Shown here piece by piece: positions 52,921-61,394 of a stretch of 64,000 bases of DNA. The stretch is taken from NCBI RefSeq assembly GCF_003073135.1, contig NZ_PGDQ01000003.1, positions 186,001 through 250,000 of the forward strand, read 5' to 3'. This DNA comes from Euzebya rosea. Lineage in GTDB: Bacteria; Actinomycetota; Nitriliruptoria; Euzebyales; Euzebyaceae. The position numbers were made by a program, and so were the translations under genes. The notes under the pieces were generated by a model. The model saw only the letters and a list, made by a program, of their open reading frames with translations, was not told the DNA's origin and ran no database searches. Every line of letters begins with the position of its first letter. The first letter of the stretch is position 1.

Positions 52921-53073
52921 ATGTCGAGGATCACCCCGAGCGTGCTCGCCGTCGTCGTGAGCATGCTGCTGCTCACCGTCCCTGCGGCTGCCTCGGCAGA
53001 AGCGGAGTCCGGTGACGGCACGTACTGCGTGAGGCTGCTCGGCTCGATCGCCTACTGCATCAGCTACCAGTAG
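52921..53073 (+). CDS. Small secreted Cys-pair peptide
   Basis: 50 aa, a short frame easily missed. ATG 52921 has GAAAGGA 6 nt upstream (52908-52914). A signal peptide (residues 1 to about 24, hydrophobic VLAVVVSMLLLTVPAAASA) precedes a mature peptide of about 25 residues containing TYCVRLLGSIAYC and ending ISYQ: two Cys nine residues apart. The stop codon overlaps the last 14 bp of the convergent ECF gene. No modification or transport genes adjoin it. It could be a small adhesin, toxin or signalling peptide; function unknown. Confidence 0.65.
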   Translation: MSRITPSVLAVVVSMLLLTVPAAASAEAESGDGTYCVRLLGSIAYCISYQ

Positions 53074-54229
53074 GGGCCGGACGCGACGTCGGGGCGTTCC
53101 GTTCGCACGAGAGAACGGGTATCGCCCCGGACCCGCTGCACACCGGTTCGGAAACCGGAGTCGTGTTCGGGTCGTCGACGGAGACCTCCACGACGGTGGT
53201 CGTTCCCTCGCCCACCTCGGCTTCCACCGAGATCACGTAGGGGGCGGCCTCGTCGAACCCGGGACCACCGCGCAGCGGTGTGCCCGGAACCCCGACGGAG
53301 GGGAGCGCGACCTCGGGCGCCCATGCCTCCCCTGCATCGGATGTCGACGGGGGCTGCGTTCGCGTCGAGACCCCGTCCACCGTCTGGGGCGTCGCTGTCG
53401 AGCCGGTCGGAACGCCGGCGGGATCGGCGTGGCGCCGGTCGGTCTCGGTCCAGGTGTTGGACACGGGGCGCTCGCGCTCGCCGACGTCGGGGCCCCAGCC
53501 GAACAGCGTCACGACGAGGAGGGGCACGACCGCTGACAACGCACCGGTGCCCACCACGCCCGGCGACAGCCACCTCGCCACCTTCCGTCCTGCGTGCCAC
53601 TGCAGCCTGAGCCAAGGGGCGCCGAGGGCGGTCCCGGCTGCATCCCGCAGCGCTCGACGCGCCCGGTGCAGGGACTGCTTCATCGCGTTGTAGCTGACTC
53701 CGGCAGACGCCGCGGCTTCACCGATGCTGGCACCGTCCACCTCCACGGCCACCAGGACCGCCTGATGTCGCCCCGGCAGGCGTTTCCACGAGCGCAGCAG
53801 CAGGTCCAGCTCCTCGATTCGCTCGTCCTCGGGCGGGACCCTTGCGAACGCCTCCATGCGCGTGCTGTCGCCAGCGGGAACGGGGTGACGTCGACGGCCG
53901 TCGGAGATCGCGGTGTTGACGGCGATTCGCCGGAGCCAGGGCCACAGCTGCGCATCCGGGTCGACGCGCTCGATATGTGCGAACGCCTTGACCCACGTGT
54001 CCTGTGCCAGGTCCTCGGCCCGTGCCCGGTCCCCGTGGGTCCACCTGCAGAGGACGGACACGAGGCGACCGTGGTACCGCGCGAAGAGGGCGGCACCGGC
54101 GTCGTGGCAGCCTGCCCTGGCCATCTCGACCAGCTCGCCATCCGTCCGGTCCTCGAGGCGACGGGACTCGACGTCGATCGACGGGGGACGTGGCTGCACA
54201 CGAGATCGCATGGACCGTTGCTTCGACAC
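53060..54229 (-). CDS. ECF sigma factor fused to membrane helix and outer domain
   Basis: 389 aa. Region 2 (about 28-115) has ARYHGRLVSVLCRWTHGDR and AEDLAQDTWVKAFAHI. Region 4 (about 140-200) has LPGRHQAVLVAVEVDGASIG and GVSYNAMKQSLHRARRAL. After a basic linker comes one membrane helix (about 224-244, VVGTGALSAVVPLLVVTLFG) and about 145 outer residues rich in Thr/Ser/Pro with a C-terminal Cys pair (PVCSGSGAIPVLSC). Such sigma-membrane fusions would hold the factor at the envelope. GTG 54229 is used; ATG 54211 is an alternative. It lies 97 bp after the tRNA-Val gene. Confidence 0.85.
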   Translation of the reverse strand: MSKQRSMRSRVQPRPPSIDVESRRLEDRTDGELVEMARAGCHDAGAALFARYHGRLVSVLCRWTHGDRARAEDLAQDTWVKAFAHIERVDPDAQLWPWLRRIAVNTAISDGRRRHPVPAGDSTRMEAFARVPPEDERIEELDLLLRSWKRLPGRHQAVLVAVEVDGASIGEAAASAGVSYNAMKQSLHRARRALRDAAGTALGAPWLRLQWHAGRKVARWLSPGVVGTGALSAVVPLLVVTLFGWGPDVGERERPVSNTWTETDRRHADPAGVPTGSTATPQTVDGVSTRTQPPSTSDAGEAWAPEVALPSVGVPGTPLRGGPGFDEAAPYVISVEAEVGEGTTTVVEVSVDDPNTTPVSEPVCSGSGAIPVLSCERNAPTSRPAPTGS

Positions 54230-57753: not shown

Positions 57754-58209
57754 CTAGGCGCCCAGCTCCTCGCGGACGATCTGGTTGACCAGCTTGCCGT
57801 CGGCCTTGCCCTTCACCCGCGGCATCAGCTGCCCCATGACCTTGCCCAGGTCGCCGGGCTCGCTGGCGCCGGTCGCGGCGACGACCTCGGTGACGATGAC
57901 GCGGATCTCCTCGGCGCCCATCTGTTCGGGCAGGTAGTCCTCGATGACGGCCAGCTCGGCCTGCTCCTTGTCGGCCAGCTCCTGGCGGCCGTGCTGGGTG
58001 TAGGTCTCGATGGACTCGCGGCGCTTCTTGGCCTCGCGGGTCAGGATCTCGGTGACCTCCTCGTCGGTCACCTCGGTCCCGCCGCGGCCCTCCTGGACCC
58101 GCAGGTTCTTGATGCCGGCGAGCACCTGGCGGAGCGTGGCGGTGCGGATGCTGTCCCGCGCCTTCATGGAGGTCTTGAGGTCGTCGCTGATCTGGTCGGC
58201 AAGGCTCAT
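57754..58209 (-). CDS. GatB/YqeY domain-containing protein
   Basis: 151 aa. MSLADQISDDLKTSMKARDS then TATLRQVLAGIKNLRVQEGR, RREKS-like REAKKRRESIETYTQHGRQEL and LVNQIVREELGA are typical of the stand-alone YqeY tRNA-amidotransferase-like tail domain. Function unknown. ATG 58209; the -10 box is 7 nt upstream. Confidence 0.93.
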   Translation of the reverse strand: MSLADQISDDLKTSMKARDSIRTATLRQVLAGIKNLRVQEGRGGTEVTDEEVTEILTREAKKRRESIETYTQHGRQELADKEQAELAVIEDYLPEQMGAEEIRVIVTEVVAATGASEPGDLGKVMGQLMPRVKGKADGKLVNQIVREELGA

Positions 58210-58216
58210 GGCCGGC

Positions 58217-58222
58217 AGGGTA
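58217..58222 (-). promoter_or_regulatory. -10 box TACCCT, leaderless yqeY-type gene
   Basis: Minus-strand hexamer ending 7 nt before ATG 58209. Confidence 0.45.
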
Positions 58223-58256
58223 CGCCCTGCAGCCGTGCCTGCCCACCGAGGCTGCG

Positions 58257-58262
58257 TACCCT
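58257..58262 (+). promoter_or_regulatory. -10 box TACCCT, leaderless HAD gene
   Basis: Plus-strand copy of the same hexamer ending 8 nt before ATG 58271; the divergent promoters are 34 bp apart. Confidence 0.45.
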
Positions 58263-58270
58263 CTGGGGCC

Positions 58271-59149
58271 ATGACCACGATCGAGACCTCCGCCCTGGGT
58301 CCCGGTGGGCGCCATGCCGACTGGAACCCGACCCTGCCGATCCGCTGGGTCCTCCTCGACGTCGACGGCACCCTCGTGGGGCCGACCGGCACCGTCACCG
58401 AGGTCGTCGCCGAGGCCACCCGTGCCCTCGCGGCCACTGGGGTGGCGGTCGGCTACGCGACGGGACGCAACGTCGCCGGGGTCATCGACGTGCACCAACG
58501 GCTGGGCCTGTCGGGACCGCATGTCGTCCTCAACGGTGCACAGGTCAGGCAGGACGGCCGAGCGGTGGTCACGCGGGGCCTGACCGACGAGCAGCTGGCC
58601 GCGGTCCTGCAGCTGTGCGACGCCGAGGGGCTCTACGCCGAGCTCTACACCGACGAGGGGTTCCTCGTGACGGCGATGGACGAGCGGTACCGGCCGCACT
58701 GGGACGAGGTCATCGGCCAGCCGATCGGCACGATCGAGACCCACCCGCCGGCGCCCGGTGAGGTCATCAAGGCCACGATCGTCGCCCACACCGACGCCGA
58801 GCTGATCGGGGTGGTCGACGCCGTCACGGCGCTCGGCCTGAGCGCGGGCGCCGCGACCTCGCCGGTCACGCCCGGGCTGACCTACGTCAACATCACCCGC
58901 GGCGACGTCGACAAGGGCACCGCGATCCTGGCGACCGCCGAGGCGATGGGGATCGATGCCTCGCAGATCGCCGTCGTGGGCGACGGCGCCAACGACCTGC
59001 CCATGATGGGCGTCGTCGGCACCGCCATCGCCATGGGGGACGCGCCGCAGGCGGTCAGGGACGCCGCCCACCTGGTCACCGACGTCGTGCTGAACGACGG
59101 CGCCGCCGTGGCGTTGCACGACCTGCTGGCCTGGGCCGTCCGGCCCTGA
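58271..59149 (+). CDS. HAD-superfamily hydrolase, Cof type
   Basis: 292 aa. VLLDVDGTLVGPTG (nucleophile Asp in DVDGT, about 30), ATGRN motif II, Lys in VDKGTAIL and VVGDGANDLPMMGVVGTAIAM motif IV, with a C2 cap between about 90 and 200. These are cytoplasmic sugar- or cofactor-phosphate phosphatases. The N-terminal 22 residues before the fold are extra. Confidence 0.93.
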   Translation: MTTIETSALGPGGRHADWNPTLPIRWVLLDVDGTLVGPTGTVTEVVAEATRALAATGVAVGYATGRNVAGVIDVHQRLGLSGPHVVLNGAQVRQDGRAVVTRGLTDEQLAAVLQLCDAEGLYAELYTDEGFLVTAMDERYRPHWDEVIGQPIGTIETHPPAPGEVIKATIVAHTDAELIGVVDAVTALGLSAGAATSPVTPGLTYVNITRGDVDKGTAILATAEAMGIDASQIAVVGDGANDLPMMGVVGTAIAMGDAPQAVRDAAHLVTDVVLNDGAAVALHDLLAWAVRP

Positions 59150-59163
59150 GCCCCCGCTCGGCC

Positions 59164-60294
59164 TTAGCGCAGGCCGAGGTCCTCCGCGCAGGCCGGCCAA
59201 GCCGACCAGCCGCGCAGCTCCCACAGGGATATGCCGGCCTGGACCTGGCGCTCGCGGGAGGCGTCCTCGACCGGTCCCACCCCGCCGACGCGACGCCAGT
59301 CCGCCGGACCGATGGCGAGGCCACCGGCCCGTCCGGTCTCGTCGGGTGCGGCCGACCAGTCACCACCGGAGGCGCAGTCGGCCAGACGGTCCCAGGTCGG
59401 GGTGTAGTAGGGGTCACCGACGCGAAGGTCGTCGGGCGTCACGAGGTCGGGCAGCGCCGCGCGGGGGAGGTCCTTGTGGGCGACGCCGCCGCGGGCGTAG
59501 GAGCGGGCGTCGGCGGGCCCGGCCATCAGCGAGGCACCCCCCAGCGCCGCGGTCAGCCCGACCACCGCCATCACGGTGGCGGCCACCAGCCGCGTGGCAG
59601 CCACGAGCCATCGAGGACGGCCGGCGGGAGGTGGCCCGTCGGCCGACACGACCGGGTCGTCGACCCGGTCCGGTGCCGTCACGGTGGGCACCTGGCGGAT
59701 CAGGTCCCGGAGCGGAGAGAGGTCGACGGTCCGGTCGGGATCCTCGACTTCGCTGCCGTGGGCGTCCCCGACGGCGGGCGCTTCCTCCGGCCCGGCGATG
59801 CGCACGGCAAGGAGTCCGTGGACAGCGGTCGCCCGTGGATCGTCGGGCCCGCGCGGGTCGTCCCGCGGCACGGTGACGGGCGGTGGCAGCGGCGGTGGCT
59901 CGGGGACCTGACGGGCCGGCTGGCGCGACGGGGGCGGGGTGGGCGGCACCAGCTGCTCGGCGGTCGGGGCCGGCATGCACGTCCACCGGGCGCGGGCAGC
60001 TGCGATCCCGACGGCCATGGCGTCCTCGACCAGCGCGCAGTGGTCGCAGGACAGGTGATGGGCGGTGGCCCCGGCCGTGGGGCGGAGGAACCCGGCGAGG
60101 TACTGGTCGCACTCGTCCGGCACGATTGCCAGGTCATCGGAGGCCATCAGCCGGCCGACGATGACCAGCCGCGCCGCGGTGTCCCGGTCGCATTCCAGCA
60201 CGTCGGCGACGACACCGAGGGACAAGCGGGCGCCGTCGTGCAGCAGCGTCGCCCGCTGCGACGCCTCCCGGGATGTACCTGCCGTGATCACCAT
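59164..60294 (-). CDS. Zinc-finger anti-sigma-like membrane protein with degenerate Rpf ectodomain
   Basis: 376 aa. The N-terminus (14-50) resembles a sigma region-4 helix-turn-helix (LSLGVVADVLECDRDTAARL). A zf-HC2-like zinc site follows (Cys62, His79/80, Cys83, Cys86 in HHLSCDHC). Pro-rich cytoplasmic linker 107-229, membrane helix about 230-258, then an outer domain ending WDRLADCASGGDW, GGLAIGPADWRRVGG and WSAWPACAEDLGLR, the Rpf (resuscitation-promoting factor) pattern. Active Rpfs have Glu after the first Cys (CESGG); here it is Ala308, so muramidase activity is unlikely. It probably binds peptidoglycan and signals inward. No sigma gene adjoins it. Confidence 0.78.
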   Translation of the reverse strand: MVITAGTSREASQRATLLHDGARLSLGVVADVLECDRDTAARLVIVGRLMASDDLAIVPDECDQYLAGFLRPTAGATAHHLSCDHCALVEDAMAVGIAAARARWTCMPAPTAEQLVPPTPPPSRQPARQVPEPPPLPPPVTVPRDDPRGPDDPRATAVHGLLAVRIAGPEEAPAVGDAHGSEVEDPDRTVDLSPLRDLIRQVPTVTAPDRVDDPVVSADGPPPAGRPRWLVAATRLVAATVMAVVGLTAALGGASLMAGPADARSYARGGVAHKDLPRAALPDLVTPDDLRVGDPYYTPTWDRLADCASGGDWSAAPDETGRAGGLAIGPADWRRVGGVGPVEDASRERQVQAGISLWELRGWSAWPACAEDLGLR

Positions 60295-60365: not shown

Positions 60366-61394
60366 TCAGTCGCGGGTGATCAGCCCGACGTCACGCAGCC
60401 ACGTCTCGGTGGCCGCCATGCCGGCCTCCAGGGTCACCCTCGGTGACCACCCGAGCAGTCGCTGGGCCTTGTCGATGGACGGCGTCCCCGTCTGGCTGAT
60501 GAACTCCAGGGCCCGGCTGGAGAACGGCGGCGCCAGTCCGAGCGGGCGCATGACCTTCTCCGCCGCGACCGTCAGCGCCCCGGCAGCAGCCCTCGGCAGC
60601 GACGGCAGCGTGCGGTCGAGCATGGCCCCGTAGGCCCCGAAGAACGTGGCCGCGGTCACCCCGGCCCCGCCGGTGATGTGGAAGACCTCCCCGGCACCCG
60701 CCGGGCTCGTGGCCGCCAGCAGCGCGCCCTCCACGAGGTCGTCGACGTAGGTGGGGGTCATGATCCCCTCCCCGCCGTCGACCAGCACGAAGAGGTTGCG
60801 GTCGATGAGCTGCACGATGCGCACCGTCCACTGGGCGGAATGGGGGCCGTAGACGTGGAGCGGGCGGACGATCGTCAGCGGCAGGCCGCGGGCGGCGACC
60901 ATCAGGGCCTGGTGTTCGGCCGCGACCTTGGAGTCGGTGTAGGGGTTTCCGCTCGCACGAACCGGATGGGTCTCCTCGGCCCCGTCGGGGAACCCGCGTC
61001 CAAGCACCACCGCGGAGGAGAGGTGCAGCATCCGGCCCACCCCTGCGTCGAGGCAGGCGTTGGCGACCGTCCGGGTGCCGCCGACGTTGACGTCCCAGTG
61101 GGCACGTTCGTCCCCGGTCTCGGCCAGCAGCGCCGCGGTGTGCACGACCAGGTCCGCGCCGTGGAGCAGGTCGACCCAGTCGCCCCTGCGGGTCACGTCG
61201 CCGCTGACCACCAGCGGCCCCGGCCGCACGTCGACCCCGGTCACCTCCCAGCCGTCGCCCTTGAGTCGCTGGACGAACGACCGGCCGAGGAACCCGGCGG
61301 CCCCGGTCACCACCGCACGACGCGTGGTCGGCTCCGAACCGGCAGCCCGTGCCCCGGCTGCTGTGGCCGAGTCGTCGGACACCCCGTCGGTCAC
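60366..61394 (-). CDS. NAD-dependent epimerase/dehydratase (extended SDR)
   Basis: 342 aa. Rossmann motif VTGAAGFLGRSF (about 29-40), Ser in LHLSSAVVLG, Tyr/Lys in NPYTDSKVAAEH, and RPLHVYGPHSAQW. It resembles 3-beta-HSD-like and sugar-epimerase SDRs; LVVHTAALLAETGD favours the 3-beta-HSD-like branch. The start is only 4 bp from the M3 peptidase stop, so both share a transcript. Substrate unknown. Confidence 0.9.
   Translation of the reverse strand: MTDGVSDDSATAAGARAAGSEPTTRRAVVTGAAGFLGRSFVQRLKGDGWEVTGVDVRPGPLVVSGDVTRRGDWVDLLHGADLVVHTAALLAETGDERAHWDVNVGGTRTVANACLDAGVGRMLHLSSAVVLGRGFPDGAEETHPVRASGNPYTDSKVAAEHQALMVAARGLPLTIVRPLHVYGPHSAQWTVRIVQLIDRNLFVLVDGGEGIMTPTYVDDLVEGALLAATSPAGAGEVFHITGGAGVTAATFFGAYGAMLDRTLPSLPRAAAGALTVAAEKVMRPLGLAPPFSSRALEFISQTGTPSIDKAQRLLGWSPRVTLEAGMAATETWLRDVGLITRD

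Follow-up and report, generated by a model that had tools for sequence, protein, structure and literature searches.

A predicted membrane protein of Euzebya rosea combines a putatively inactive Rpf domain with a sigma-factor-like inner module

Introduction

Rpf proteins rouse dormant actinobacteria, and the mechanism by which actinobacteria sense released wall fragments is, to our knowledge, an open question. Sigma factors of the ECF48, ECF52 and ECF53 types carry a zinc part of the ZAS type and membrane helices in one chain (PMC8999054); in SCO4117 the chain also includes a carbohydrate-binding domain and a Pro-rich stretch (PMC5826349), and glycosyl hydrolase domains are predicted in some ECF52/53 proteins (PMC10766802). 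The RsgI anti-sigmaI factors of Clostridium thermocellum are one-pass proteins with an outer carbohydrate-sensing domain, and eight of the nine have a sigma factor as partner (PMC12203970). Among the Rpf enzymes themselves, RpfC has the catalytic residue Glu16 and a disulfide Cys15-Cys76, and its Phe35 and Ile58 line a hydrophobic pocket beside the catalytic Glu (PMC4648573).

Here we describe P0001, a protein of 376 amino acids encoded in a window of 64,000 nucleotides of Euzebya rosea (the whole stretch of DNA that was analysed; contig NZ_PGDQ01000003.1, positions 186,001 to 250,000). Its open reading frame was found where an earlier interpretation made from the letters alone (the sequence-only reading) had placed it, and its parts are listed in Table 1.

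Results

Table 1. Features of the P0001 gene and its neighbours (positions in the window).
Feature	Position	Strand	Basis
Whole ORF P0001: sigma4-like HTH, HxxxCxxC (ZAS-like) part, Pro-rich linker, membrane helix, putative pseudo-Rpf	59164..60294	-	Orthologue L008 82% identical; dN/dS 0.20 overall
Sigma-region-4-like helix-turn-helix, residues 9-51	60142..60270	-	Family profile against SigJ/SigC sigma4 and ECF sigma4s; weak PF08281 in paralogues; three-helix model, pLDDT 93
Zinc anti-sigma-like helical part, residues 60-103, candidate ligands C62, H79, C83, C86	59986..60117	-	Column conservation, modelled helices; no Pfam zf-HC2 match
HHLSCDHC site, residues 79-86	60037..60060	-	H, C, C invariant among relatives
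Pro-rich cytosolic stretch, residues 108-141	59872..59973	-	Near-identity with orthologue
Single membrane helix, residues 236-254	59533..59589	-	Hydropathy 2.0; helix 228-255 in model
Rpf domain, predicted catalytically dead, residues 299-376	59167..59400	-	PF06737; RpfC/E/B by sequence and fold; dN/dS 0.086
Ala308 codon, catalytic Glu position	59371..59373	-	Glu in 70/70 other class Rpf domains; Ala also in L008
AGGLAI (residues 323-328) replacing cleft motif YGGLQF	59311..59328	-	Q, F invariant 70/70, Y 59/70 in other class Rpfs
Upstream neighbour, same strand: NAD-dependent epimerase/3beta-HSD family (context)	60366..61394	-	
Convergent neighbour: HAD (Cof-type) hydrolase (context; start codon uncertain)	58010..59149	+	

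P0001 resembles ECF48, ECF52 and ECF53 in its order of sigma region 4, ZAS-type part and membrane helix, to which ECF52/53 add a Pro-rich stretch or an outer glycan-related domain. Of their one-chain plan, the membrane helix and the outer domain are present, and the ZAS part is recognised by motif only. Those proteins are sigma factors and have kept region 2, whereas P0001 gave no match to sigma region 2 (PF04542), residues 1-8 being all that precedes its helix-turn-helix (HTH), and its family is therefore no member of ECF48/52/53 as defined. Their outer domains are carbohydrate-binding or glycosyl hydrolase domains in ECF52/53, whereas that of P0001 is an Rpf domain, apparently a dead one. 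The likeness to RsgI would be one of working on the outer side, the inner domains being unrelated as far as known. RpfC, RpfE and RpfB (4ow1, 4cge, 4kl7) share with P0001 the sequence family, fold, disulfide cysteines and Trp frame, but they are secreted or anchored enzymes, whereas P0001 lacks the catalytic Glu and cleft residues and is fused to an intracellular regulatory module. A search of the open-access literature found no paper on an Rpf domain fused to a sigma4-ZAS-like module or on an Rpf pseudo-enzyme, which is not proof of absence. The sequences thus point to a known plan of sigma, ZAS, membrane and outer glycan-related parts in one chain, and the differences here appear to be the Rpf as outer domain, its inactivity in P0001 and the absence of region 2.

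Residues 299-369 matched the Rpf profile PF06737 with 54.2 bits (E 2.3e-14; profile cut-off 27 bits), and sequence comparison likewise matched the C-terminus to M. tuberculosis RpfC (4ow1, 7e-13), RpfE and RpfB. In the AlphaFold model of the full chain, the domain has a pLDDT of about 94-97 and aligns with RpfC and RpfE at TM 0.87-0.90 and 1.1-1.7 A, so that both the Rpf-like C-terminus and, with Ala308 aligned on RpfC Glu16 and the Trp, Cys and Gly frame intact, the replacement of the catalytic Glu agree with what the sequence-only reading had proposed. In an alignment of 72 distinct Rpf domains, of which 71 come from the class, the catalytic position is Glu in all 70 others and Ala only in P0001 and its orthologue, where the Glu of an active Rpf is accordingly missing. 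The same Glu is present in all of 24 other Rpf domains from the phylum-survey loci, several of which overlap with this set. Of 396 genomes sampled from the phylum, a set without G003, the genome that holds the orthologue, only that of Euzebya rosea matched a pattern of the Ala version (E to A, same spacing, exact motif).

Nine columns invariant in the 70 domains are unchanged in P0001 (W301, C307, W313, G324, G325, W333, W366, P367, C369), including both disulfide positions, C307 and C369. Four are altered (Glu to Ala308, Gln327 to Ala, Phe328 to Ile, Ile351 to Val), and Tyr323, a Tyr in 59 of the 70, is also Ala. Positions 328 and 351 were equated by motif with Phe35 and Ile58 of RpfC; the changes to Ile and Val thus map to the pocket residues, and the residue loss is centred on the cleft. 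Since Gln327, Phe328 and Tyr323 have changed too while fold residues and disulfide cysteines are intact, the loss of Glu is no point accident. Judged by alignment and model, the Rpf domain of P0001 is one that has lost its active site and retained its fold. The loss of Gln327 and other YGGLQF residues besides Glu argues that glycan binding has changed as well, and with these cleft residues gone peptidoglycan is not assured as the ligand. In a tree of the 72 domains, P0001 and its orthologue form a very long branch; their grouping with the active paralogues described below was not rejected by the AU test (p 0.27), nor does the tree establish it. In another genome (G037, locus L020, 1774-2919), a normal Rpf gene has beside it an Rpf-like frame that is degenerate or split (TIWDALADCETGDRIDGE ... 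GGLQF).

The orthologue in G003 (L008, 1501-2601, + strand) is 82% identical to P0001 and shares Ala308, AGGLAI, the neighbours and the gene order, the locus itself being highly similar in the two genomes; the Ala is thus not the strain-specific change that the sequence-only reading had named as a possible objection. The gene is present in two of the four genomes of the genus and missing from the other two, and in G001 the epimerase and HAD genes adjoin with nothing between them. A scan of genome contigs for orthologues returned only an ordinary Rpf of Gordonia effusa, and a plasmid search returned Rpf-domain matches alone. Between the two species dS is about 0.6. The gene as a whole has a dN/dS of 0.20, with 0.086 in the dead Rpf domain, 0.098 in the inner module and 0.53 in the linker (residues 141-225); the corresponding value for the active paralogue's Rpf domain is 0.045. 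The value of 0.086, set against 0.53 in the linker, indicates that the dead domain is under selection, and its conservation in a second species under purifying selection makes a non-catalytic role likely. With an open frame in both species and a constrained domain, P0001 is, on this comparison, neither a pseudogene nor a sequence error. The Pro-rich cytosolic stretch (EQLVPPTPPPSR.PARQVPEPPPLPPPVT) is nearly identical between the species, the linker that follows having diverged to 55%, and could possibly be a protein-docking segment.

Searched with a profile of residues 1-118, each of the four Euzebya genomes yielded a paralogue that has its parts arranged as in P0001 and retains the Glu (LAQCESSGDW or similar); that of Euzebya rosea lies at G000:C19:68812-70107 (-), and its counterparts are in G001, G002 and G003. 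The host genome encodes three other Rpf-domain proteins, all with Glu, one of them being this paralogue. An architecture that the sequence-only reading did not know is therefore present a second time in the same genome, and ECF52/53 fusions with outer glycan-active domains have been described. The active paralogues have the sigma4-like HTH, HxxxCxxC part, membrane helix and Rpf domain in the order of P0001, but unlike P0001 they retain the catalytic Glu, YGGLQF, a basic recognition helix and a longer outer linker. The combination of HTH/HxxxCxxC and Rpf was seen only in the genus Euzebya across the class and the phylum sample. Further relatives within the taxonomic order, which have no Rpf domain, carry an ECF-like sigma2 remnant (YAWWLTGD), a sigma4-like HTH and an HxxxCxxC part; several also have a membrane helix. 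A third relative within the genus (L130, 529-2037 (-) in G000:C27, with L128 and L129) has an ECF-like sigma2 remnant, a sigma4-like HTH, an HxxxCxxC part that has lost its cysteines, a membrane helix and an outer part that appears rich in beta structure; it gave no significant Pfam match. At locus L196 (4896-7264), the active paralogue adjoins a polyphosphate-kinase-2-like gene, and no sigma gene was seen nearby.

In the inner module, the region-4-like HTH of the sequence-only reading gained support through the relatives: the family profile built from relatives of residues 1-118 matched sigma region 4 of SigJ (5xe7) with E 0.013, together with several ECFs and sigma4 of SigC. The sigma-70 region 4 profile PF08281 did not match P0001, and three of the four active paralogues reached E 0.001-0.01, under the cut-off. 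In the phylum survey, a 32-bit profile match covered both sigma region 4 and the C-terminal HxxxCxxC part of a complete ECF sigma factor. Because the more distant relatives are ECF-like proteins that carry the HxxxCxxC site in one chain, the inner part appears to be sigma4-ZAS-like with sigma region 2 left out. The net charge of the HTH recognition helix is +1 to +2 in the dead copy and +3 to +4 in the paralogues and true ECFs, and this poverty in basic residues makes DNA binding doubtful.

The zf-HC2-type site of the sequence-only reading stood as a motif and not as a profile match: H79, C83 and C86 never vary among 12 aligned relatives and position 62 holds C or H, a ligand order as in the ZAS site, and the zf-HC2 profile (PF13490) matched neither P0001 nor its paralogues. 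A profile-profile comparison with zf-HC2 domains of related genomes was in register and scored above 300 of 300 column shuffles, although the reversed profile scored almost equally and the score vanished when C and H were removed. The zf-HC2/ZAS assignment of P0001 is therefore a putative one, made from motif and position only. The inner module was modelled as one compact unit (pLDDT 93, pTM 0.86), with helices of the zinc anti-sigma-like part at 60-69, 74-82 and 84-105; Foldseek and VIA-align gave generic HTH matches alone (DeoR Z 5.1, RsiG-WhiG Z 4.4) and nothing ZAS-like among the matches listed, which says little. Taken from sequence relationships, the inner part appears to be sigma-factor-derived and is probably zinc-binding, and with a vestigial sigma region 4 inside it, it may act in cis and not on a partner.

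The chain has a single strong hydrophobic helix near residues 236-254, as the sequence-only reading had noted. Basic residues number six N-terminal and none C-terminal of the helix in the G000 and G003 paralogues, as against three and two in P0001, which is ambiguous; the nature of the domains suggests that the N-terminus lies inside and the C-terminus outside. The outer linker measures 41-46 residues in the dead form (46 in P0001) and 71-104 in the active paralogues, that of the G000 paralogue being about 100 residues long and Pro-rich; the dead domain would thus lie nearer the membrane than in the paralogue. After the membrane helix, the segment LMAGPADARS (59500-59560, -) is identical in both species and resembles the A-x-A site of signal peptidase, and the Rpf domain might be released there.

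No sigma gene adjoins the P0001 gene or its active paralogue, and a promoter and terminator scan gave no signal. The nearest sigma gene (53060-54229) is 5 kb off and outside the block conserved in G003. This gene, on the - strand, had no counterpart in the corresponding stretch of G003; its product is a complete ECF sigma factor (PF04542, PF08281) that has a C-terminal membrane helix of its own and a Ser/Thr/Pro-rich tail.

Discussion

Our preferred reading, to which we give a probability of about 0.5, is that P0001 is a transmembrane regulator which uses its pseudo-Rpf as a sensor or docking domain and whose inner sigma4-ZAS-like module comes from an ECF sigma/anti-sigma fusion minus region 2. 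The loss of the active site in a domain still kept by selection suggests that the former enzyme is now probably a sensor or docking part. The receptor that the sequence-only reading had envisaged, controlling a sigma factor from inside, is favoured insofar as the dead Rpf is real, conserved, under purifying selection and joined through a membrane helix to a sigma4-like/HxxxCxxC part; the absence of an adjacent sigma gene speaks against it. By descent, an ECF sigma factor would have been fused to its own zinc anti-sigma domain and would then have lost sigma region 2. The sensing, signal transfer and output that we infer for P0001, together with its ligand and partner, would run as follows: outside, about 46 residues from the membrane, the non-cutting Rpf fold would sense or dock either a ligand or a protein partner in the inner zone of the wall; this contact, or strain on the wall, would alter P0001 or cause its cleavage; and the inner module would in consequence bind differently to its target, for which a sigma factor or RNA polymerase is the likeliest candidate. 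A tentative extension is that the fusion lost region 2 and gained an outer Rpf, and that a duplicate lost its active site to become a pure wall sensor, so that enzyme and pseudo-enzyme versions of the receptor would coexist in one cell and would link transcription to wall growth or resuscitation with no need of a separate sigma factor as partner.

It is conceivable, if rather improbable, that the dead Rpf instead serves as a decoy or adaptor, which would bind the wall or the partners of active Rpfs and so limit or place the three Glu-bearing Rpf proteins, the inner part being a vestigial anchor. In mycobacteria, the partner of RpfB in an interaction of wall enzymes is reportedly RipA. An interaction between RpfB and an antagonistic wall enzyme of mycobacteria (PMC2912383) offers a precedent for such a role, and the three Glu-bearing proteins of the genome (one of the same architecture) and the retained fold surface with its lost cleft fit it as well; an inner module constrained as strongly as the Rpf domain (dN/dS 0.098) would be needless for a plain anchor. 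We consider it unlikely that P0001 is a classical anti-sigma factor that acts in trans on an unlinked ECF sigma factor and frees it by proteolysis after sensing wall fragments. The HxxxCxxC site with an upstream C/H in ZAS-like order would suit that function, as would the RsgI-like pairing of one membrane helix with an outer domain (PMC12203970), but a sigma gene is adjacent in neither species, the zf-HC2 profile is unmatched and the sigma4 remnant of the same chain could fill the ZAS surface. The lack of a sigma gene beside either the P0001 gene or its paralogue makes the role in trans weaker than the receptor scheme.

Recent decay, in which a redundant copy of the active paralogue is turning into a pseudogene, might be suspected from the presence of the gene in only two of four genomes and from the adjoining neighbours in G001, but the frame is open in both species, the same Ala, Ala and Ile replacements are fixed in both at a dS of about 0.6, and the dead-domain dN/dS of 0.086 largely refutes it; we hold it to be very improbable. 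There is equally little to be said for an Rpf domain that is still an enzyme by way of another catalytic residue: the fold is intact in the model and the acidic D306, D312 and E343 are close by in sequence, but the Glu is invariant in 70 of 70 class relatives and the invariant cleft Gln and Phe have gone together with it.

Under the preferred reading of P0001 as a transmembrane regulator, its family would represent a sigma/anti-sigma fusion that has lost region 2, probably a stage in the evolution of regulators. A conserved pseudo-Rpf wired to a sigma-derived module, beside a Glu-intact twin in the same genome, would be a natural pair for asking whether Rpf folds sense besides cutting.
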